This document shows, piece by piece, positions 18,533-38,515 of a stretch of 57,277 bases of DNA (positions are counted from its first letter, which is position 1; each line of letters opens with the position of its first letter). The position numbers and the translations under genes are program-made. The notes under the pieces are model-generated. The model ran no database searches and had not been told where the DNA came from. It saw only the letters and a list, made by a program, of their open reading frames with translations. This DNA is from Ectocarpus siliculosus (taxonomy: Eukaryota; Sar; Phaeophyceae; Ectocarpales; Ectocarpaceae): contig FN649750.1 of the NCBI GenBank assembly GCA_000310025.1, positions 142,219 to 199,495 on the forward strand, written 5' to 3'.

Positions 18533-21500
18533 CTACATTAACGAACGCGCGAGGAACGACTCCAATCGCGCGCCCCCCTTCGACGAGCTCCCCACCCCGT
18601 CCACCCCGCCGCGGCCCTGCTGTCGCTCGGCGGCAGCGGCGGCAGCATCAGCGGGGTCCTTCTTGTCCGTGCCCGCCATTCTCGACAGCGTCTGAGCCAC
18701 CTCGGAGGGGTCGTTGACGTAGAAGTTTGCGTGGGTGGGCTTCTTCCCCACCATGCACGTGTAGAGGCGGATGTTGTCCATCTCGGCCTGTGTCATCTCG
18801 TCGTTCGACCTGGAATAACAAGCCATGGGCGGGCACAGGCGGTTCCAACATTATTATTGACTGATTGTTAATCGTCTACGATTGATCAGTACGGACAGAT
18901 GGAGGTACTGCGAAGAGAGATCGGAAAGCGGTTTTCAATGTGAACACAGCAACAACTACAACATTGATCACCACTGCTGTTACGGGACGGGGCACCGTAA
19001 CCTGTGATCCTCTCTCTTCCAACAGAGAATATTCCAACACTCCGACCATCTCCACCCTACTACCACATACGTAGCACACAACACGACATGTGGGGTAACC
19101 CGCCATTGACAACGAAGTGTACGCAGAACATGAAGGATCCTTTCTTGCTCTGGGACGGTAGACAGCATATTGGCAACAACCTCTTAGCGCTGCATTCCAG
19201 CAGTGACCCCTTGGGTCAAGTCTTTGTGGGGACGTTTTCCGTCACTCGCGTTTTCGGCGTTCATCCGAAATGAGCTATCGTAGGTGACGCAAGATACCAC
19301 AGCCCCTGGACTGATTTCCAAAGCTCGACTATTCCACGGTCTCGTCAGACCTCGACACCTTAGTCCTCAATATGCTTATCGTCACCCGCACTTTCGGCGC
19401 CCGTCTAAAACGGTCTATCCGTTATCGGTCTTCAACATCCCATCATAGTCCTCTCAACATCTCATCTTAGTCCTGAACATCTTGTCGTAGTCCTCAACAT
19501 CGTAGGGTTCGGGTTAAGGTTAACTGTCGTTCTCTCTCGACGGTGGCTCGACGCATACCGTACGCACCCCGTCTGGTCTCCCGCCTGCGCCAAGAAGGAG
19601 TACACCGCCGAGAACATCTGCTCGTCGCTGGCGTCGTCCCCCACGCAGAACACGAAGTCCGGGTTGCAGCCGCGCCTCTCCTTCTGTGTCCTGAGGATGG
19701 TGCTCACGACCACGCCCTTGTGCAAGCGCTTCGGCACCACCTGTGCAAAAAGAAAAAGACGGGTTAAATGAGCCGAAATTGTGGCATGGTGCTCAAGGCT
19801 GCTTCGAAGTGCAGACGGTGCATTGTTTGATACTGGGAGGCAGAGCTTCATGGGTAAAGTTACTTTGGCTACGCTATGAATGAACCGACCTCGTGTCGAT
19901 AGACTGCGGCTGGGCGTGGGCATGGCGGGTGTTGGTGGCGGGGTGTGGCATCAAGTGCATGCCAAAATGCGTCAGATCCAACATCTAATGCAGTCGCGGA
20001 ATCTTGGGGCGCAGTAAGCGGGACGTTGGGTTTGTCCAGCCGATCATGTTGTCCTCGTTGTGTCCAGACCAAGAGACGGGAGCTGTTTACACGAAAAAAG
20101 CAAAGTTGAACACTTTTCGTTTCTCACCTCGAGCGAACCCCTAAGGTGCTGCACCTTTACGTCGTACGCCGACAGCGCCACCTGCCGACAACCAAAAATA
20201 ACGAAAAACCAGGAACAGAACGGTCGTGCAAAACAAGACAGCTGAGGAGCAGTTTGGTGCAGACACATAATCCATCGAAGTCGCCATAGATAAGCCAATT
20301 AATGAATAGTAAAAATGAAGATGGCGGCAAGGTTGGCTTATCACTACTAACGATAACAACGGCCGCAGCCTGGCAGTACACAAGGGGCAATGTGAAAATC
20401 AAGCAGATATCGGAAGAGCGAGCAGTTCACGCATGCATTACCTCCAACCTTCCCGCAAGCAGCTGGCTGCGAATCCTGCGACGATTAAAGAAAATTTAGG
20501 TTCACAGGTCGGCGAGGTAGCACATTTTAACGTCGGTCTCAGGACCAATACGCCAAGAAAGAAGCCGACCACCCGCTTCTCTCCCACACAAGCTACGTAC
20601 AATTGTACCTCTTGTCTGATTCCAAACGAATCGCGCGCGGGAAATTCACACACAAAAAAAAAGCCTGTTGCCTTCACTCACCTCCAACTCCCCGTGCAGC
20701 TGCTTGGCCTGAGTCTGCCCCCACTCGGGGTCCGTGGAGTAGTAGCTCCAGGCCAGTCCAGAGTCTCGCATCTTGATGTTCGCCCCGTTCGTGTGTGCCG
20801 TGAACTTCTGCAGCAGAGGCAACGCGGCCGTTTTCACTTCATCCCAGTCGACACCGTAGTCGAACACCTGGCAGACGAAGAAAAATAACAATAAAAAAAA
20901 AGGAAACAAAAACAAGGCAAAATGAGCAACGGAATGTAGTACGAAGAAAAATAACGAAAAAAAGAAAAGAAACAAAAACAAGGCAAAATGAGCAATGGAG
21001 TGTGGTGGGGTAAAGAGGGACCAACAGGAGAAAAATAACATTTACTGGCAGGGGTAAGATGGCGGAAGAGGTCGGAATAGGAGGAGAATGATTGGGTCGA
21101 CTCGACTGTTTCGGTTGAGGATTCGGTTGGCGGTTGGGTCCATCTCTTGTTACTCCTTCAACCGCATTCTTGCGTAATACAAAACGCAGGTCTTCGCGGT
21201 AGAGATGCAACCCGTGCATCGCAACAAGCTAAAGAGGGCCATAGTGCGCACTACTTTTCCAAGGCAAAACGCGAAAAGATCCCACTAAGAACGCCATCCC
21301 GTTTCAGAACTCCGCCCTTTCGTATGCATGCGTATGCGTACCTCCCAGCTGCGTTCACTGGCCACCTCCACGGGCCACGAGAAGGCCAAGCCGTTGTTGG
21401 CCGCCAGACCCAGCCCGGGCACCGCCCCGACAGCCTGAACCAAACGGAAGTAGACAAGATGAAACGAAACCGCAGAAAAAAGAACGAGATCGAATGACAC

Positions 21501-24500
21501 CGAGCCCCACAATGTTGTAATAATACATCAAGTCCCCGACGGCCTGCACGACGAGGAACAAACGTGCCAATGACGAGTGAAACCGCCGTGGAACAAAACC
21601 AAATCAAACTTAGTGCTTTGTAGTGAAACGAACGTGTCATCCTGAACTGAACCGTGGGCATACGAACGAGATCAGTGCTCCGTAGTGAAAAAAAGCCGAT
21701 TAACGTGCATCGCCCCCCCGATAGACTGCATGACGTGGAAAGTGTCATGCTGAAAAAAAACGTGGGAATATGAACGTAATCAAAACTAGTGCTTCCCAGT
21801 GAAACGAGCGTGTCCGAGTGAAATGAAACTAAGGAACAAAAAAGAAAGAAAAAATAATGCATTGTCGTAGTGGAATAATGTGACTTGTCGAAGCCACAAG
21901 AGAATTTGTATATATTTTCATATACGGGGAAATCCCAACTTTGCCTCTGGATGAGTCATACAGGCTCATGCATTCACATGTATCCGGGGTCGGGAGGTGA
22001 ACGGCGTCCGCAATCGTCATGCATCATAGCGTCGACATATGATAGGCAGAAATATCATCACAGACGAAAATAGCTCCACCCGCTAGCATTGACAATATAC
22101 ATGGTCGGAAACTCATCTCACAAAAGCACCAGCCCCAGTGACGTCAGCAGCAGCAAACGATGCAGGCGTGCATCCCATGACGAATTTCCTTACAAAGCAC
22201 TCCACTGCCAACATTCCAAAACCACACACAAGATGTTCGCCTCAATTCAACACCAACACACACCTTCGCGACACTTACGTAGCACCCGCGTTACTTGAAA
22301 CGCTAACCCTAGACATCCGCATAACATTCAACCTCGCCCTCGTCCCCTCACGTTCATAAGCCCCTTGTCGTTAAGGCCGGAGACGATGAACACGGTGTTG
22401 GCCTTGTCCTCGCAGAGCTTCACCACAGCATCGTACGTAGGCTGGGGCAGCTTGCGCCCCGACGCGCTGGACATGTTCCTCTTCAGGTACTTGCCCAGTC
22501 CCTGCCAACATCGCAGGCCGAAGGAATAGGGGGGTCTCTTGTTTGATCTTGAGAACGGTTGCCCAGCCCATGCACAACAACATCGTTCACAAACAAAAAA
22601 TAAAAAAATCATAACAAAATAAAAGAACAACAGCAAACCATAGCAGACAGGAACAACAAAACCTTAACAGACAATAACAAGACCTAACAGACCAGTAATA
22701 GCATCAACGACACGCCTGAACAGAAAACAACAACAACAACAACAACAACAACAGCAGCAGCAGCAGCAGCGGGTGCAGTGAGAGCAACACCACCAAAAAC
22801 AACAACAACGCACCTCTTTTTCAAGGAGCGAGCCTCCGTAGTCGAGTAGGATAACCCTGCTCTTCGAGTGTCGGTACGCCGCCATCATGTCGTCCACGTC
22901 CAGGGGAGTGAAGTCCGTCATCGTCATCTCGTGCGTCAGCTCATTGGCCAAGCTCTGGAACCGAATTTTCCGAGGACAAGTGCAAAGAGTGCAAGTGGGT
23001 CACGCCAATTTAAGAACGCTCCAAAAAACGGGTGTAAATAGTTAAAACATGACATGGGTTTCCAAACTTGGAGGGTGGTTTATTCTATGCTTAATTGCTC
23101 TCCTCGCCCCCCCCCTGGGAACAACGCGTGTAGTCGAAACATGAAGTTCTTTAGCAAAAACGGAGTGAGGAGGGCGTTCTTTACGTCTGCTTCTTCCCTT
23201 GGTACTGTGTCTCACACCACATCACCCCCTTCATCTTCATCTTCATTCTCGTCTCGCGTGGGAAGTGCCCCACTCGCAAACCTCCCACATCAACATCAAC
23301 ACTTTTACTCCGCGCAGATATCCACGTCTGCCGTACGTCGGGAAACAATGGCCGCCTCTTAGACGTACACCCCTCCCCGCCTTACCTCTATCATCCCCAT
23401 TTTGGCGTTGATGTGCTGCCCTGTGAGTGAAAAAATGCATCTCAAGTCAAGACAGCACCGTGTGCCGTGAGAACAGTACCGTGAAAGGAGCAGGAAGGGG
23501 GTTCCCACCGCTGTTTGCGGGACAACACTGTGGAAAGATGCTATTGTGACGTCTTACCGCAGTCTCCTCGATGTGCGTGACGCTAGCCTCGTTTTTCATG
23601 GCCCACATGTCCAGCAGGGCCTTGACACCAAACGACAAAAACACCCCAAAAACAGGAAAGACACAGACAGGGAATTATTGTCATTCAGCATTCATCATTC
23701 AGCAGTGCCTGCAAATCAACCGCACACGCACACATACCAGCACGCACACATACCAACACACAACACATGCAGATCAAGACCCGGCATTTGGTCGCAGTGT
23801 CCCGTACTACTGTAAGATACTTGTCTCATTAATAGTTGCCATAGATTGCCTCCAGCGCTCGTAGATGTTGACGTCACTCCCAAAAACACTCCCAGAAACA
23901 ATAAACAGATTGGTCGCCGAACATTATCGGTTTCGATAGCATGCCTCATCATCTCAGATGCTTGTCCAAAGGACTCTCATGGGAATCCTCGAGTCCCCTT
24001 CAAGACTCTTAAAAGTGCGTCAAAAAGAATACGGCGGCAACCAACAATGACGGCAATGACTGACCACAGCAACAACAGCACCTGGTACGTCCAGAGAGCA
24101 GATGGCCTGGATGAGATGTACGGCAAGTCACGGTCTCGTCGCCCACTCCTAAAAATAACAAAGCACAAGAACAGACAAGGGGGGGGGGCAGCATGATACG
24201 AAAAAAACACATCTCAGAGCAGGTATATATTAGCTGTGGTCGAGAGTGTCGGCGAGACAAATAGCAACGCCACCGGAACTCAGCACTCGTGGACACGATC
24301 CACTGTGCGAGAAAAAATCTGCATTGCTCGCTACCCCTGTTGTACAGTTGAGACATCCGTCAGCAACAACTACAACAAATATCAAAACAACCGAAACCCA
24401 CCCGTACTGCAGAAAAACCACGTCCTATGCCGCACCTCGAACCGCCCATCATGCGCCCAGCTACAAGCAACAGCAACCATTCATCCCATCATGCGCCCAA

Positions 24501-25255: not shown

Positions 25256-28200
25256 CAGCAGCAGCAGCGGCAATCAATACGGGCAGCAGCAGTAGCAGCA
25301 GCAGTAGAAGTAGCAGCAGCAGCAATCAACACGAGCAGCATAACCGGCAGCAGCCTACGCAGCAGCAGCAGTCAACAGCAGCACTAACAACGCCAACTAC
25401 GGCGGCAGTGGTAGACCAAGCAGCAACCAAGGCCTCACCTCGCGAACCGCAGTGAGAACCAAGACTCTTGCGCACTTAAACAGCGCCAGCCTCTCTGGCG
25501 CCGAGAGATCATTCCCGACGACCTCGGTGTAATCAATAACACCTTCGCCGAATTGCCTAAAAAAGGGCGAAAGCACACAGAAAATACGTCACGAGGCACT
25601 CCGATCAAATGACAACGCCTTCGCCTAGATGAGGAGGGTAAAATAAAAGCATACAGAGGATACCACACGCGATATTCCCATCAATCGATATCGCCTTGGC
25701 CGCATCGCCTAGAAAAAGGCAGAAAACACACACAAAATGCGTCAGGCGGAATACTCCCATCGAAGCAAATGTGGCAAGAGGGTTCTGGAGAGATAGTCAA
25801 TGAAGCTACAGCAGTAGGCAAGCTTTTCCTCGATTGATGCAGGCCACATAGTAGATTGGTGGAGCAAAACCCTAAAGCACAAGATGTTTTGCTACTATAT
25901 CGCTGACACGAATCATGTCGATCGCGCACCAACTGATCGCCTTAAGCTCAACAGGCCACGGCACCCTTAGCCGAAGGCAGCATCTCATCCTAACCTACTT
26001 ACGTACCTACCTTCGCAGAGCTGACGGTGCCGATGCATTCACTTTCTGCCCCATCTGCGCTCTCTACGCAAGATCTCCGATCACGATCTCCGATCAAGAT
26101 CTCCGATCAAGATCTCCGATCAAGATCTCCGATCAAGATCTCCGATCTGGAACCGACTATGACAAGATTTGGGCGCCACATTTGTCGAACCGAGTCGCCC
26201 ACCGTCCCCTACTGCGTACGCTCTCAAGAGCCGTTGCGGACACCACCTGCTACCGTCATTTCCCGATACTGCACCGACCATCCTTACAGGGTGGAATCTA
26301 CGAACCGAGGAAACAAGAGCCCTTGCGGTATGCGGAAGTGCCCTTCACTCTATTCGTGAGAACAGAGAACGATTTGCAAAGTCTAACCCTTCTCCGCATG
26401 TAACACAACCACGTCATGGTACTATCTCAAGAAAAAAAAACTCTCTCCGTTATTGCAGCAGAGAGCTGTACAGAAAAAAATAATCAGATGGAGAATGGCA
26501 GGCTAAAGACTACGTGGAAAAAAAAAAAAACGTGGCCTCTCTCCCGTGTCAACCCGGCTGATGCAACCCATGTGTACATTGATTGTTCGGCGGCGCACAT
26601 GGCCACGAGAGAAGGCGGCCACACAGAAAGAATACAACCTTGTGTGCGGAGAGATACATCGAAGTTCGACTTACTGCTGGATGCGAGCAACGAGCTGCTT
26701 GATCTCCGCCGACGTGTGCTCCTCGTCCTCCACGCGGCTGGAAGGTCGAAGACACCGCTGCACCAGCACCACCTGTCCAAACAAACAACAACGATCGATC
26801 AAAATACCGGGGGGGGGGAGGTGTCATCGTGTCATCGGCAAGACACTCCTCCTAGGCACTTGAATGGTCAACTACTACTAATGTGCCCCGTCGAGGAAGG
26901 GTTAAGGAAACACGGATAGGGTTACCGCTAGGTTTGCTAGTACACGCTTCTTTTCACGGTTTCTAAGCTATATGCAAGATGAAGTCATGCAAGAATTCGA
27001 TGCCCAGTCATCGCATGTAGCCTGCTGCGGGTTTGCCAGCGTGTGCGGATGGGATGGTCAACAACAAAATAAACAAACTCAAAGCCATGACGGTTTGACC
27101 GATCTGCATAGACCGAACAACTTGTGGAGGAACCATCGTTTCCCAAAGCATGGACGGCAGTCTTCTGCTTTGGGTATACTAGATGGAGGTCACAAGGGTC
27201 TTCTAGGCAGGTACTGTACCAAAGAGCAGCACAACACTGACGAAGACGACTATGACTATGGCAAACGAGGGTAGCAGCTAGCTATATATTTTACCCCACC
27301 TCATCCCTGTGGTTGGGGTATTCCGTCAGCAGCCTTTCGAAGGCCAGTAGCTTGAGGGTCACTCCGCTCAGTTTTTGGCACACGTCCACGCCGGCCATGA
27401 TTACCCTATAGGCAGAGAGCGGGGCGGGGCGTAGCAAACGTTTACCGGTGGTGTTAGTGGTGGCGGCGGCGGCGGGGGTCGTCTGCTGTAACCTTGGTTT
27501 GACTGGAATTCCCCACCCCCGTTGCCGTGAAACGCACATGTATGCATACGACTTCGGCATTAACAACACATGGCGATGTTGGGTCCATCAAACCAAGCAA
27601 GCTCTTTGGCTGCCAACCGTCTAAGGCATACCACGGATTCTACCACGGATTCTACCTCGAAACATTTCACGAAAACACCATTGGGGATCACGCGGAAGAA
27701 AACGAGGGAGACATGACGGAATATGCCAAGGGAGACGTCTGTCACGGAAGATACCGCGAACGATTGTGGTACGAAATAGGCTCGTTTCAGGGGTTGTTAC
27801 ACTTTTGTCCCCGCTTTCACGTGTCTTGCCGTCTGTCGGCGGCGCAATTGGCTCTTCCCCAGATGACGGTTTCGTGAATCGGCCGTTTCGAGTCCACGCT
27901 AGTTCGGGAGAGAGAAAAGCTACCTCCGGTAGAGGCAAGCTTAGATGTCCGAATATCAGTTCGTTGGCAGAGATCCAACCACCGGTTGAGGATAGCATGT
28001 GTGTGCGCGGGATAGGCAAAGCAGCAGCAGAGGTGTTGGCCCGCCTGTGATGAATGCAGTAGCAAGCGAGAGCAGCTAAATCAACTACACGTTTCTTCAT
28101 CCATCATCTCTCCAGTCCATCCCTCGAAGAGATCCATCGGAGATCTATCAAGAATGCAAGAGACAAGAATCTTGAACCTAGCACAGAACCCCGATAATAG

Positions 28201-31200
28201 TCGAGAGCCACATCTCTTTGCATTTCATTTGGGAACCCCGCGTCCGACCTTCCCACAGCTTGCGACGGCATTTTTGTAGCAACATCTCCACCATGACTAT
28301 CCCACGTGGTAGATACCCTCCTCTATTTTCATTCAGGGGTGTATCGGCGGTGGATGTTTGCACACCTGTTGCCGTGCTTCTTCTGGATGACCTTGACCGC
28401 CTGCTCCGTATCCTTCCGGGCGATGTGTCTCTTCAGCAGCTTCGGCTCGATACCCACGTGGCTCATCACCACCATCACCTGTGGACAAACGTCCAACTCG
28501 ACTCGTCATCTATACCAATATGGGCATAGCATGTAGCATGTAGCATGTTATTGTTTTTCGTCTTGCCGTGCGACGGTCGCGTATTCCCCCGTCCGATTAA
28601 AATAACCAAGCACACCAAAGCGACAAGTCCTGTTCACTGCACCTCCTGTCAATGCAGCGGGGTCGTCTCATACCTCAGTGACAACCAAACAAACCGGGCA
28701 AAAAAAAACGGGAAAAACAAACTGCAACAAAGATGGATGCCGAGACACCACGAAAACATTTTTTTTCCCCATTGTTTGACAAAAAATGGCACCAGACAAA
28801 GCACGTTCCGTGCAAGGCAGACGAGGAACACCAGCCAAGGGTTTCGTCTTCTTTCTCGGTGCCTTCCTATCTACACCTCCAATCTCAAAAGACGAACAGC
28901 CCAGGAAAACTTCATTTGTTGCCCTTGTTGTGTTGTTCCTTCTCTTACCGTGCGGCGGTCGTACTCCACCCCAATCAGCCCTCCCTTGATGCTCTGGTAG
29001 CTCAGTCCTAGCAACCGCTTGCCGGCATTGAGGAAGTGCCTGGATGAAACGTTCGGTGGAGGGTTAAGGGTGAAAAAGAGAGCGGGTAACGCCAGGCACG
29101 CAGTAGCAGTAGCAGTCATCATTCCACCGATCCACGATTCTTGTACCGCGTACCGCTGGAGGTGAAAAATGTGCCTCGGACATGACCACCCATAGCTTAC
29201 GCCTCCCTCCTCGAAATAACAACACTTTTGAGAATGAGCACCAAGCCCACAAACGGTGTAGTAGTAATAGACACCGGTATTGTTGGTCAAATTCCTCTCC
29301 GAGAAATTGCACCGACTCTCCGCCCCGGCTTTACCCAATCAACAACCGAACTGATCCCATAGTCGATCGGACGTCAAACGCAACCGACAGCGGAGTGCCG
29401 CAATATCATTCATTCTTCCTGCTCCACTATGTCGCCACGAACGGAAGGCACTGTACTCAAGAGGGATCTGGCGTACACGCCCGGGGGGGGAACCATATGG
29501 CCAGTTCTTGTGTCCAGCAACAACAGCCAAAATTTTTCGAAAGCAAACCGTGTATTCGACTTTGTAGCACGAGAGAATCACCACGACTACGTACGATCAA
29601 TCTCCATTGTTCGAACCTGGCATGGTCGAAGGCGTGGAAGCCCACGATGTCGGCGGACAGTACGCCCTGCAGCAGCTCTTCCCCATGTGCGAGCGCCCTG
29701 CCAGGGAATAGAATAGTTCACACGAAAAAAAAAATGACCAGAAGCGCGTGCTGGCGTCAGGTTGATCAGAGGTATTGTAGAAAGAGTTCGAAGTGACCCA
29801 CGTGCCTGACGAACGTGGTACCGTACGAAGAGGAGTAATCTCGCGGCTGGTCAGAAAAATTATTGGGACAAATTGCATTAGTGATGCTTTAGGTTTAGTG
29901 AAGCCGCTCCAACACCAAGGAACAAAAAAAATTCAAGCACGAGACATGAGACCTAAACCCAATGACACGGCTTAGAGAGAGAACTGCGAGTTCCCCGCTC
30001 GGAAACTTTCGCAACGGTTAGGCCAATGTCCACGGTCGCACTACGTAGCATGTACAGCACGCACCACCACATGAGACCCTCTTTTGGTCGAGGGTCGTTA
30101 CATGTTCCGTGTAAAGGGTACCCGCGCGGCTATATTAGTGTAGGATTCATGACTGAGCGCTTGGTCTTATGTCCAAGCTCTTGGTCTTATGGCCAAGCTC
30201 TTGGTCTTATGGCCAAGCTCTTGGTCTTATGGCCAAGCTTTTGGTCTTTTGGCCAAGCTCTTAGAAATTTTGAGGCTCAACTTCTTCTGAAGCGGTGGCT
30301 GGCGCGTTCTGTACGATACTACAAGTCACACCTGAAGATCTGGCTGGTGGGGAAGGGAATGTGCAGGAAGAAGATGATGCTGGTCTGCCTGTGCTGAGTA
30401 GCATCCTTCTCCCGGTCGCTGAGCAGCTTGGGCAGTAGCATGAGGTGGTAGTCGTGTACCCACATCACGTTGTTGCGGTGCCCCCTCTCTCTGTCGTGCC
30501 AAACACGTAAAAAACACACACACACACAAAAAGGTACAACAGCAGTGAGACCACAAAGTGTACGCCAACAGGCGCATGGAGAGCCGAACACACAGAAAAA
30601 AAGGTACAACAGTGAGACGACAGTGAGCCAACAGGAGCATCGAGTGACGAACAATACACGCAAGGAAGGGCAGCGCTAAGGCGACAGAGTGCTCGCCAAT
30701 GGGCGCATGGAGAGACGAACAACACACTCACAAAAAATGGTACAGCAGTAAGAGGGCAGAGGGTAAGGGCCGACAGGGCCGACAGGCGCATCGGAAGTGA
30801 GAGAGGGATCAAGGTCACCATGGGGCAGGACACGAGGCAAGAGAAGCAAGGTGGCTGCCCAGTGTTTACACAGAATGACGTTTCCCGTCCCTCGGAAATA
30901 GAAACAAATACCCCATTTTCACTTTCAATTGCTTTGCCTGGGTCAACGTTCATCACCCATCACCATGTCGCTCAATCTCCGTCATGTGCTGCATGTGGTG
31001 GCATCTAGGAACCAATTATTTCGCTCGGAGAGCTTGGTCTGCAAGTCTAGTGTTGTCTGGTGCGTTGCGATAGAGAAAGCTAAAGAAACCCAAACCAACT
31101 CACGAAGAACACGATAGCCATCAGAGGGTATCCCCCCAAGTCCACACCATCATCTCCGCCAACACCATCATCCACGGCAAGCAAGAAGCAAGAGAAAAAC

Positions 31201-34200
31201 TCACCCCAGCATCCTCATCATGTGGTCGGCAAACGTGGTGTTGAGGGTCTTGAACGCCTCCCACCACTCGACCGTGTTCTGCTGGTCCCAGGTGAGCGTG
31301 GGGTCCGTGCTGTGGGGGTTCCACCTGCAGCTCGCTAGGTCCAGCACATCAACCTGTGTGCGGAACATCGCGCGATCGACGCCATCGGATGATGTTGACG
31401 ACAGCGTGGGCACGTGGAGATTTTGGGGGGAGCATACCCCTGCGCTGGAACGTCGAAAAGGGTCGACCGCCAAAATGACGGCTCATGACATAGAACCGGA
31501 AAACACAACGCCCATCACAAGTTCGGTGAAAACGCCTACACGGCTGTAGGAGCCTAGGGGACAAGTGTGGGAGACAATTGGCACGAATGTTTTTCGCGTA
31601 CTCCGTCACAACTGAAGAAGGTCTTTGCTAACGTCGACATTTTTATGACCAGCGTGCAGAACCACCAATATTCCACACACGTGTGCGACCTGCGGAAGGA
31701 CGGATGAACTCCTGTCGCGGGCTAGTCTGTCAGGGTTTGGCTGAGGGCTCTCTTTTCTCACATTGTGGAATGCCGGCCACAGGATCTGCTTGCAGTAGCC
31801 GAGGTAGCTTCCCCGGATGATGGACAGCGGCACGAAGATCGGAGTGCAATTCATGGGCCGCAGAACCTGTTACACGGTCGCACCGCCGGAGGGCACGGCA
31901 GTATAAATTTTCAGCGATGTCATGCCAGCATTGGGTATGTAGGACAGAGGCTTTCGACACCTTTTCCTCGTACGTGAAAAAGTCAAACGCGAAGCCTCTT
32001 GAGACCAAGCGGGGCAATATGGTTGCAGTACCGTTTCGCTTTTCCCCAAGCGTTTGAAGGGACCAAAGTACATGTAGTCTCGCGCAGAGAGATGGGATGA
32101 CCACACAGTGCAACTAATGGCACCACGAAACCACACCGAGCTTCCCGGCCCCTGATCCAATCCCAGAAAAAAAAAACACCACTCGCAAGACATGAACAGC
32201 CAATCAACCGAGCGTACAAACAAGACCGGTGGAGACATCGCTGCTTCTACCGGTCTGTCTGTCGACAGCATTCCTGCCAAAAACAGGCCAACCAAGAACG
32301 CCTGCTCTGCTTCGCTGTTGCGCCTGGGTTTTCATCGCCTTTTCCTGTCCTCCTTCGTCCAAGACAAGCGCAATGACATGTGGTATCTCCCGCCCGGATC
32401 CAGCAGCACACTCAAAAACCAATACCCCACCACGATGCAAGGAATCTCGCTATTTCTGGAGCGGGTGCAAACCGTGCACGACCAGACCCCCCCCCACCAC
32501 ATCCAACTCTCCAACTTACGAACGCCCTTGGTTTGTCCCGCAAGGCAACATTGCTGCCTCTCCAGTGACCGTGAGTCTACTGACAGATGTGTCACCCTCC
32601 CCAACCCTCCCCAACAACTACAAAGCCCAACAAAGCATGCAGTGTAGCCCCTCTCTGTCGCTAGAAAAATATATAATCACAGCCGTTTGAGATGCTACCG
32701 CGGCCGTCGAAGCGGAGTACATGCGGTGAGTAGGATCATTTTTTGTGTTACTTGTGTGGTGATTTTTTGTTTTGTTTACCTGTGTGATGGCCTTCTCGTC
32801 TGCCTCGGTGAACTCCTTCCCGTCATTGCTAGCCACCGTGCCCACCCAGTGCGTCGGGATGCGGGTCGACACGCTGCGAAAAAGAAAGACAAGAACAAAA
32901 AAAATTACGGTACAGCAGTACACAAATTACGGTACAGCAGTTCAGATCGGTCGCGTGAGTTTTTTTTCCAACATCGGTGGCGTTCGTTCCGAAAGGAACA
33001 CGCGGACAGATCGCTAATCGTCGACATCCCGACCAATCCTCTGCCTCGGCTCTCGTTTCTTACCCATCCTCTGTCTCGGGCTGTCGATTCTTACCTATCG
33101 TCTGTCTCGGCAAAATGAGGCTCTCGCTGCTTTACCTATCCTGTGGCTTGGCAACGAGATGCTCTCCTTCCTTACCTATCCTCTGTCTCGTCAAAATGAT
33201 ATAATTATGCTCTTGTTTCTTGCCAATTCTCTGTCTCGGCTCTGGTTTCTTACCTATCCTCTGTCTTGGCAATGAGGCTCTCGTTCCACTCGGCCTGCCA
33301 GGTTCCTTTCCAGTCCTTCTTCAGAGTCAGCGGCAGGTGGAAGCACACCAGGTACAGCACCGAGTCCGGGGGAGGCTCCACGTTTTCTCGCGGCAACGAT
33401 GTGCTAGCTGAAGGATAATAGACGGTTGTTGCAAAACGATGAGACGCGAAGAAGACAAACACCACAGCACTATGTTAGAGTCACACTCCGCACTGCTGCT
33501 GCGAAGGCACAAAAACGGCACACAGCTTCAAGTAACGCTGAAGACATGGTGGTAGATTTTACCCAGGGGTCAAGGCATTCCGATCCCTAAAGTCGAGGCT
33601 ATTGAATTGAATCTTTGATCTCGTGGTTGGCAAATTGGGCAGCCTCTGCTCGAAGAAAATAAGCGAAGAATCCAAGGTGGTCCTGCAACACCGTAGGTGG
33701 TCGGGTGTAATGCCGGTTGCCCAATAAAATGTCGGTGAAGTGGTGTGACACAGATGGAATATTCAAGGTGTTTCATACTCTGAATAATGCCGGTTGCCCG
33801 CTAATGCCAGTTCAAGGGGTTGGCACATACCGGCATGATAGCAGTACCACGTCTGTACAACGATGCCAGGCCGCTACCTTTCTGAACAAAACTACTTGGT
33901 GCCCGCCTGATAAACCACAAATCTGAACTCACACATACGATAAAATCATGCCCGAATCACAATCGTCGAGCACATGCACGGAATGCGCTGAGAGGACCCC
34001 ATCAAAACTGGGAAGGGAAGGCCGAGAGAGAGAGCGTGTAGTGCACTCACCGCTGTGGTGGTCAAGTCAAGGTGCAATATACCACCAGAGTAACGAGAGT
34101 TTGGTCAGGTGCACTCACAGCTGGGCTTCGGGTTGGTGTTGAGGCCGGAATGCTGCCTGTCCGGGTTGACGTAGTCCGAGATGTCCGTCTCGTGCCCGAC

Positions 34201-36600: not shown

Positions 36601-37057
36601 CTTGTGAGACCTCCTGCTGCTCTATCTATTGCTGAAGCCCTCTCTGCCGATGCTTCCTGTGAGAAATACTATACTGCTGTACCTCCCTTCTCTCTGCTCC
36701 ACCGCAGGATCCTTATACTCGACCCACTCCACACGTGCACGAAGGTAGTACCCTCTTGCGAGCGCCTTGATGCCTGTGTTCCAAGGTGTACTCTCTATGG
36801 CGTCTGGCCAAACATCACACGGGCTTGCAAGACGGCCTGCTGGGGGGGGGGTGCGCGAGCGAGTTTCGCTTTCAGAGGCATGTACATATGCCCGTCACAC
36901 AAGAACCAACTGGCGGTGCCGCCAGCCGCGTCTAGAGGCTAGATCAGACAGCTCTTCTGCTGTCTGCAAAGCGTGCTGGTGGTGGTGGTGGTGGTGGTGG
37001 TGGTGTGTGCAGTGTCGTTCGAAGTCAGAAACTCAGCAACAGTGGAGGCAGAGAAAA
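36601..37057. promoter_or_regulatory. Divergent intergenic region, TPS / ankyrin gene
   Basis: The start codons of TPS (minus, 36600) and the ankyrin gene (plus, 37058) face away from each other across 457 bp, so both 5' untranslated regions and promoters must lie here unless noncoding first exons exist. It contains a GGT-repeat (about 36975-37008) and a run of 9 G at 36842-36850. No clear TATA box is visible. Confidence 0.5.
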
Positions 37058-38515
37058 ATGGACCCGGTCGCTAACCCGCATGAGTTAAATCAACTACACC
37101 GTGCTGTTCTTGTTGGTTCTGCAGAGCTTACTCAAGCTGTCCTGGCGGGGGGAACTGTTGAAATCGATCAACGTAATTCGTACGGCGCCACTCCACTCAT
37201 GATGGCCGTTCACAACGGTCATTCGCGTATTGCGAAGATGCTGATCAAGAAGGGGGCCAACGTGTCAATAGCGGATAAACGAGGCTTCACTGCTCTGCAC
37301 TTTTGTTGTGCCCGAGAAGAAGACGACGCCATTGTCAAATTATTGGCCAAGGCTGGTGCCGACCTCGACGCCATCATACCTGGTGAAGGCTCCGCACCGC
37401 TTCATCGGGCTACACACCATGAAAACTCCAAGGTGGTGAGAGCGTTGATCGAAGCAGGCGCGAATCCCGACTGTCAGCTGCCAGACGGATCGACAGCGCT
37501 GCACATCGCGGCTGAAGAGGGACAAGTGGCCGTGATGAGGGAGCTGCTTCGTGGAAACGCGAACCCGTTATTGATTCAAACATCCCCGCCAGGAAACACT
37601 ACGACGGTCCCACTGGACTTAGCTGCCAAACACGGGCACACCGACGTAGTGCGCGAGCTGATTCAGGAGCTTGGGATTGAAGGTTGTGATGCAACAAGCG
37701 CCGGTGCACACGCTCTCGCCTTTGCGGCGTCGAACCAGCACCTGGACATCATGGCCATCCTAACCGAAGCCGGCGTGGTCGACACGGGAAAGGCTCTCTA
37801 TCTTGCCGCCGGGATGGGCCATGAGGCATCCGTCAAGTTTCTCTTGCGACATCGGCACAAGGAAGGTGGATGTGGCGTTGAAGGTGCGTACCTCAATGCC
37901 CGCGACGTTAACGGCTACACGCCCCTGGTTGTCTGTACTCAGGGGTGCTTCTCGCAAGCTCCCAGGATCGTGCGGATGCTCGTTGACGCTGGAGCAGATA
38001 CGACATCGCCTGTTCAAGTCATGAACTTGAAGGGAGGGGTGGTATTCAACGACACGCCTCTGGCTTTCACAAAGTTACGCCTCCGTAAGAAGATTGTAGC
38101 AGATGGCAAACCCGCTACCAAGGAGCACCTGCAAAGGCTGGAGGCCATCTGCCGCTTGCTGCTGCGAGTTGATGCAGTCCACGCCGTGTCCTGGCTGTGG
38201 CCAAGCGGAGCTCCCTTCATCGGTCGTGCGACAGAGACTGACCCCGAGCCGCCCTTGCCAGCACTGAAGCTGATGTTGCCGATCCTGAAGCGACGGACAA
38301 AGAGACGTTGTGGGCTTGTGGCGACACTCTTGAGGTGGGTAGAGTGGAAAGTCACTGAACGTACGATCGATGTGATGCCTTCTTCTGGAAGCCATGACCA
38401 ACTGACCGGTGGCGTTTGTTGCTCGAGACTCGCGGTAGATGAGGCGAAACCACGCAGGTGTTTCTGGTGCCGAGCTCATTTGTGTGCCAGCCATAGCTAT
38501 CATTGTCGGTGTTGA
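37058..38515 (+). CDS. Ankyrin-repeat protein
   Basis: A single uninterrupted frame of 485 codons from ATG 37058 (A at -3, G at +4). The frame is open further upstream, but that part crosses a GGT microsatellite read as poly-Trp, so 37058 is preferred. From about residue 40 there are consecutive ankyrin repeats: YGATPLMMAVHNGHSRIA, GFTALHFC...KLLAKAGADLD, SAPLHRATHHENSKVVRALI, GSTALHIAAEEGQVAVMREL, VPLDLAAKHGHTDVVREL, and further degenerate ones to about residue 330. The C-terminal 150 residues are basic and end in a cluster CFWCRAHLC that does not clearly make a zinc finger. Ankyrin repeats bind protein partners; the partner is unknown. Being intronless beside genes with many introns is unusual; a short 3' intron cannot be excluded. 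Confidence 0.82.
   Translation: MDPVANPHELNQLHRAVLVGSAELTQAVLAGGTVEIDQRNSYGATPLMMAVHNGHSRIAKMLIKKGANVSIADKRGFTALHFCCAREEDDAIVKLLAKAGADLDAIIPGEGSAPLHRATHHENSKVVRALIEAGANPDCQLPDGSTALHIAAEEGQVAVMRELLRGNANPLLIQTSPPGNTTTVPLDLAAKHGHTDVVRELIQELGIEGCDATSAGAHALAFAASNQHLDIMAILTEAGVVDTGKALYLAAGMGHEASVKFLLRHRHKEGGCGVEGAYLNARDVNGYTPLVVCTQGCFSQAPRIVRMLVDAGADTTSPVQVMNLKGGVVFNDTPLAFTKLRLRKKIVADGKPATKEHLQRLEAICRLLLRVDAVHAVSWLWPSGAPFIGRATETDPEPPLPALKLMLPILKRRTKRRCGLVATLLRWVEWKVTERTIDVMPSSGSHDQLTGGVCCSRLAVDEAKPRRCFWCRAHLCASHSYHCRC

Follow-up and report, generated by a model that had tools for sequence, protein, structure and literature searches.

A tandem array of exon-edge copies carrying spare splice donors in intron 4 of a trehalose-phosphate synthase gene of Ectocarpus siliculosus

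In a trehalose-phosphate synthase (TPS) gene of the brown alga Ectocarpus siliculosus, the last 30 nt of exon 4 and the adjoining 5' splice site are followed, on the minus strand, by six imperfect tandem copies inside intron 4. Such an array is far more than chance would produce. It is, in our judgment, quite probably a neutral intronic minisatellite that was born at the exon edge and carries passive decoy donors; the direction of copying, the neutrality and the choice of the first donor by exon definition are the parts of this reading that we infer.

The TPS gene and the anatomy of its array

A Pfam search of the first 13 exons identified the minus-strand gene as a TPS of the CBM20-GT20 type. 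The CBM20-like region (residues 33-113, E 2e-4), at 21.5 bits, lies below Pfam's cut-off of 23.3, and the glycosyltransferase family 20 (GT20) match that comes after it (E 8e-78) starts at residue 175. The gene was modelled by hand as 25 exons, from 36600 down to about 18533, whose joined frame runs through 1045 codons to a stop; the exons after the 13th were placed by eye, from the frame and known TPS/TPP features. The joint of exons 4 and 5 was placed by the frame, the splice signals and two alignments to solved TPS enzymes, and both alignments run without a gap across the joint, where local identity is low. A possible 30-nt micro-exon (exon 18, 23386-23415, minus strand) was placed by frame alone. 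A 588-codon stop-to-stop frame on the plus strand (36749-38515), ankyrin-like by eye, adjoins the gene.

Table 1. Positions of the intron 4 array, its flanking exons and other exon-edge copies in the TPS gene model
Feature	Position	Strand	Description
Exon 4	33254..33407	-	154 nt, ends in phase 2, codes ...WNESLIAKTED; placed by frame, splice signals and alignment to solved TPS
Intron 4	32874..33253	-	380 nt, acceptor TTTCGCAG
Exon 5	32780..32873	-	reading frame carries on (SVSTRIPTHWVG...); protein alignment
Template unit	33244..33283	-	last 30 nt of exon 4 and first 10 nt of intron 4; true donor GT 33253-33252
Copy 1	33214..33243	-	30 nt; donor position 33223 is GC (TTGGCAAG); U1 -3.3 kcal/mol, weak
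Copy 2	33166..33213	-	48 nt; decoy donor GTAAG at 33175; U1 -9.9 kcal/mol
Copy 3	33126..33165	-	40 nt; decoy donor GTAAA at 33135; U1 -6.7 kcal/mol
Copy 4	33085..33125	-	41 nt; decoy donor GTAAG at 33094; U1 -9.4 kcal/mol
Copy 5	33054..33084	-	31 nt; decoy donor GTAAG at 33063; U1 -9.2 kcal/mol
Copy 6	33024..33053	-	30 nt; GT at 33033 decayed (GGTCGG); U1 -4.4 kcal/mol
Donor-edge copy of exon 3 in intron 3	34041..34055	-	15 nt; original 34109-34123
Donor-edge copy of exon 10 in intron 10	28557..28590	-	original 28940-28970; two small gaps
Acceptor-edge copy of exon 14 in intron 13	25683..25744	-	original 25531-25591; mirror image of the intron 4 array

The template reads CGAGAGCCTCATTGCCAAGACAGAGGATAG on the exon side and GTAAGAAACC on the intron side (33283-33244). 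Its units occur in a long form (40, 41 or 48 nt) and a short form (30 or 31 nt), the latter of which fits a putative 8-10-nt deletion between GCC repeats. Copying from exon to intron would be the simple direction, because the CCTCATTGCC block of the long form is the coding exon's own and the edge lies within the reading frame of the enzyme. Over 24 compared positions the six copies differ from the template, in order, at 4, 3, 6, 3, 2 and 8 sites, so the array is probably not brand new; copy 4 is the best full-length match to the exon 4 edge. Tandem Repeats Finder (TRF) splits the array into three rows (33032-33110, 33090-33199 and 33209-33270).

The true donor pairs with U1 at -9.4 kcal/mol, which is matched by three of the decoys (in copies 2, 4 and 5), and the GTAA donors of the four copies lie at +78, +118, +159 and +190 from it. 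Between 33450 and 32861, a U1 pairing of -5.5 or better is reached at no GT or GC site other than an exonic GC at 33294, the true donor and the four decoys. The first-pass annotation had given the five donor positions and the four distances, and these are exact on the minus strand; its count of six intron copies, four of them with donors, was likewise right, three of the donors being GTAAG and one GTAAA, and the remaining two copies hold the GC and the weak GT listed in Table 1. It had further read an immediate TAA past the true donor, and such readthrough indeed stops at once, giving a truncated product of 203 aa that ends in KTEDR. This stop lies beyond the CBM20-like region, close to where the GT20 match begins. 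A coding role for the array was rejected, as there are stops in all three forward frames. An antisense 85-codon stop-to-stop frame (33018-33275, plus strand) spans the whole array and is probably repeat-driven.

If the downstream donors were used and their product were stable, the gene would also make a 203-aa protein with the CBM20-like domain and without most of the catalytic domain, and the place of the stop would suit a domain-sized fragment. All decoys, however, would give this one product, and the array adds nothing over intron retention; in addition, 21 more exon joints come after the stop in the model. A premature stop upstream of many exon joints should invite nonsense-mediated decay. 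Such an isoform-making role we find hardly credible.

Chance, local repeats and other exon edges

A 19-mer of the unit, with at most three mismatches, is found at five places in the window (the whole stretch of DNA analysed, 57,277 nt), all of which are array units (the exon template and four copies), and the mean number of such matches expected by chance was 0.00 in 100 shuffles of the window. A dispersed element was rejected, since no further copy of the 19-mer turned up in the 57-kb window at this tolerance. The 19-mer had no exact match in viral contigs or prokaryote genome contigs, neither collection being algal, and in the same two collections no relative was confirmed by protein among 3 and 57 candidate stretches, respectively. 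Strong donors are also crowded here: the minus strand of the window holds 36 GT sites at -9 kcal/mol or better, and stretches of 200 nt with at least three of them start only in the array (four sites from 33253 and three from 33175). The plus strand has two starting points with three GT sites at -9 kcal/mol or better within 200 nt.

Exon edges were compared with their own introns over the 24 introns of the TPS model, with 552 pairs of an edge and another intron as comparison. The exon 4 edge scored 57 against its own intron, while the maximum of the cross pairs was 24. Donor edges scored above every cross pair in four of the 24 introns, namely introns 3 (25), 4 (57), 5 (25) and 10 (30), and the acceptor edge did so in one, intron 13 (37 vs 30); the intron 5 match is A-rich and of low complexity by eye. 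Weaker scores were seen on the donor side of introns 11 (22) and 22 (24) and on the acceptor side of introns 19 (25) and 20 (22). This comparison superseded a test of 12 introns with 200 shuffles each, in which none of the 200 shuffles came up to the donor edges of introns 3, 4 and 10, those of introns 5 and 11 were reached by 2/200 and 6/200, respectively, and no acceptor edge stood out.

With a longer probe, the intron 13 copy aligned over 62 columns with a score of 62. Lying 152 nt upstream of the true acceptor, it includes a pyrimidine tract, a decoy AG (25710-25709) and 26 nt of exon. A second, weaker partial match to the same acceptor edge lies at 25646-25669 (minus strand). In intron 10 the copy is ~380 nt down the intron and its donor has changed to GC; in intron 3 the copy lies 68 nt into the intron and keeps the donor GTGAGT (CAGCGGTGAGTGCAC vs CAGCTGTGAGTGCAC). 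The donor edge of exon 22 (GTTGGAG before the joint, GT after it) has a weak copy in intron 22 (20440-20465, minus strand, score 24). Intron 20 holds a near-copy of the start of exon 21, GCAGGCCGTCGGGG (21534-21549, minus strand, score 22), beside a diverged repeat region, and a second one, CAGTCTATCGGGG (about 21716-21728, minus strand), was seen by eye only.

Local repeats are common in the introns of this gene, judging from the scores of probes against their own introns. A score of 25 was reached by 14.7% of 538 unfiltered intron-interior probes and by 3.6% of the 112 with an entropy of 5.0 or more; among exon-interior probes tried against the flanking introns it was reached by only 2/86 (two overlapping probes), which counts against passive decoys. 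In the entropy class 4.7-5.3 (a filter that dropped 3/48 edges), intron-interior probes scored at least 25 in 61/738 and at least 30 in 34/738, and exon edges in 6/45 and 3/45 (P 0.27 and 0.47, as a guide only, since the probes overlap, are not independent and in part sit in the arrays under study). In the class 4.8-5.3 (14/48 edges dropped), scores of at least 25, 30 and 37 were reached by 39/580, 19/580 and 7/580 intron-interior probes and by 5/34, 3/34 and 2/34 edges (P 0.09, 0.12 and 0.08, to be taken with the same reserve). The rate at which edges enter local duplications is thus not clearly different from that of the intron interior; edges may be two- to five-fold in excess where the sequence is most complex, and their higher counts in the class 4.8-5.3, the strictest, likewise count against passive decoys. 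A broader view would have exon edges of this genome recurrently copied into the adjoining intron (on the donor side in introns 4, 10 and 3, on the acceptor side in intron 13), with the decoys as graded buffers of unproductive splicing. We regard this as a long shot; were it true, the intron 4 array would be its most developed case, with four decoys, three of them near-equal, and one shared stop codon.

Passive decoys weighed against a regulatory role

The neutral minisatellite probably arose as follows. A stretch of ~40 nt across the edge of exon 4 and intron 4 would have been duplicated in tandem, by replication slippage or unequal exchange, and would have grown to six copies inside the intron, where sequence is presumably little constrained. 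Each copy would have taken a donor along; some seem to have decayed (to GC and GTCGG), and in four the donor still appears usable. Of these donors the first would most likely be chosen, because recognition would act on the exon as a whole and favour the donor closest to its upstream acceptor; the remaining donors would be passive, yielding at most a low level of non-productive mRNA with its immediate stop.

The first-pass annotation had set this neutral origin beside a device of decoy donors that tunes productive splicing. In such a device, the spare donors would pull U1 or the splicing machinery off the true donor, and a share of the transcripts would carry the immediate stop and be degraded, so that the level of the enzyme is set or switched. 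The four decoys with donor consensus, three of them at the strength of the true donor, would suit this, and that strength is also a plain observation against passive decoys; the TAA at once beyond the true donor fits as well. In yeast, transcript levels under stress are lowered through non-productive alternative splice sites, including one 5' site, according to the available part of a study in that organism (PMC3983031). The donor core, however, shows no greater conservation than the unit around it. Across the six intron copies, mismatches to the consensus number 7/42 in the core (-2..+5), 6/78 upstream (-15..-3) and 9/24 downstream (Fisher P 0.22 for core vs upstream and 0.80 for core vs all other columns, 15/102); better keeping of the core was not seen in what is a weak test, on six copies from one genome. 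Two of the six copies have lost a good donor, and the rate of edge copying described above also speaks against a device. For Ectocarpus, the portion of a study available to us (PMC4476162) describes large introns together with extensive splice motifs in exons, and alternative splicing detected at a low rate; these features fit a favoured upstream donor, and the low rate is a further point against the device. We therefore hold such a device to be unlikely. The neutral reading is supported by the anatomy, by a donor core that has fared no better than the remainder of its unit and by similar copies elsewhere in the gene; for the tuning device, nothing speaks apart from how strong the spare donors are and, for two decoys, how accessible they are in a predicted fold.

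In that fold, for exon 4 with intron 4, the true donor has its GT largely in pairs (unpaired 0.01 and 0.06), as have the decoys at 33175 (0.03 and 0.04) and 33135 (0.00 and 0.03), and the decoys at 33094 (0.58 and 0.59) and 33063 (0.65 and 0.62) are more open. Such folds, if they form in the cell, would favour these two decoys, contrary to a passive state. It might also be supposed that the array acts through RNA structure, or through repeated sequence like an exonic enhancer, and helps to define the true exon end. Against dinucleotide shuffles the array fold is indeed unusually stable (z -3.51, 0/200 as stable), and intron 4, downstream of the exon, has the highest purine fraction of the 24 introns (0.64; mean 0.50). 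A null of column permutations that keeps the repeat layout, however, makes the fold unremarkable (z -1.36, 26/300 at least as stable), on which ground a structural role was rejected; we take the predicted stability to be a by-product of the repeated TTGCC and GGTAA. The purine richness follows from copying the exon end (0.63). An action of this kind is very doubtful.

In the part of PMC9225289 available, human donors of matched strength show a preference for the upstream site with long flanking introns and for the downstream site with short ones, and the switch between exon-centred and intron-centred choice is put near an intron length of 200-250 nt. The median intron of the TPS model measures 552 nt, and exon 4 sits between introns of 711 and 380 nt. 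With such lengths, splicing should lean towards the upstream true donor, as a tendency only, if the human rule carries over to this organism. The same excerpt has about 60% of human events favouring the downstream donor when no strength filter is applied (PMC9225289). The classical intron-centred proximity rule likewise favours a downstream donor, and both points count against passive decoys in intron 4.

Known systems and what the array means

The human IFI6 (6-16/G1P3) minisatellite reportedly supplies several splice donors, going by the title of a 1995 paper by Turri, Cuin and Porter. A later study that cites it states that two downstream repeat units of IFI6 act as splice donors and give isoforms (PMC4526556), a precedent in favour of isoform making in intron 4. 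IFI6 is the closest precedent for our array: both are minisatellites that offer several splice donors, and here there are a template at the exon edge and six head-to-tail copies of 30-48 nt, four of the copies with a good donor consensus (GTAA). They differ in that the downstream units of IFI6 are reportedly used and make isoforms, whereas extension into the intron 4 array meets an immediate stop.

Internal tandem repeats at exon-intron boundaries, on average four 30-bp units, are described for human paralogues in the accessible part of PMC2812944. There, too, minisatellites at an exon edge alter which splice signals are on offer; however, those repeats vary between paralogues, are supported by RNA and can form new introns, whereas ours was read from one sequence. 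In a potato case of intron gain by tandem duplication, as far as the extract goes, a duplication that crosses the boundary likewise copies splice signals (PMC4974935), but in our hand-made model the copies lie within one existing intron, on the donor side, and no new intron is seen. The yeast sites mentioned above resemble the decoys in that their use leads to a premature stop, and in yeast to decay; they are backed by RNA evidence in the passages available, whereas the decoys here form a tandem array (PMC3983031). No report of the present locus was found in the literature searched, among the matches listed, and the literature search found no paper on latent 5' splice sites.

The kind of array is thus already known and ordinary, and what sets this one apart is that each spare donor would end in one and the same immediate stop. 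The case also illustrates how cryptic sites can be seeded at either end of introns as repeats grow within them, though a new system is not established by this alone. Should splicing use just the first of these near-equal donors, which share a near-identical local context, the array would be a natural splice-competition experiment that tells exon-centred from intron-centred choice, in what seems to be a gene from beyond the usual model organisms.
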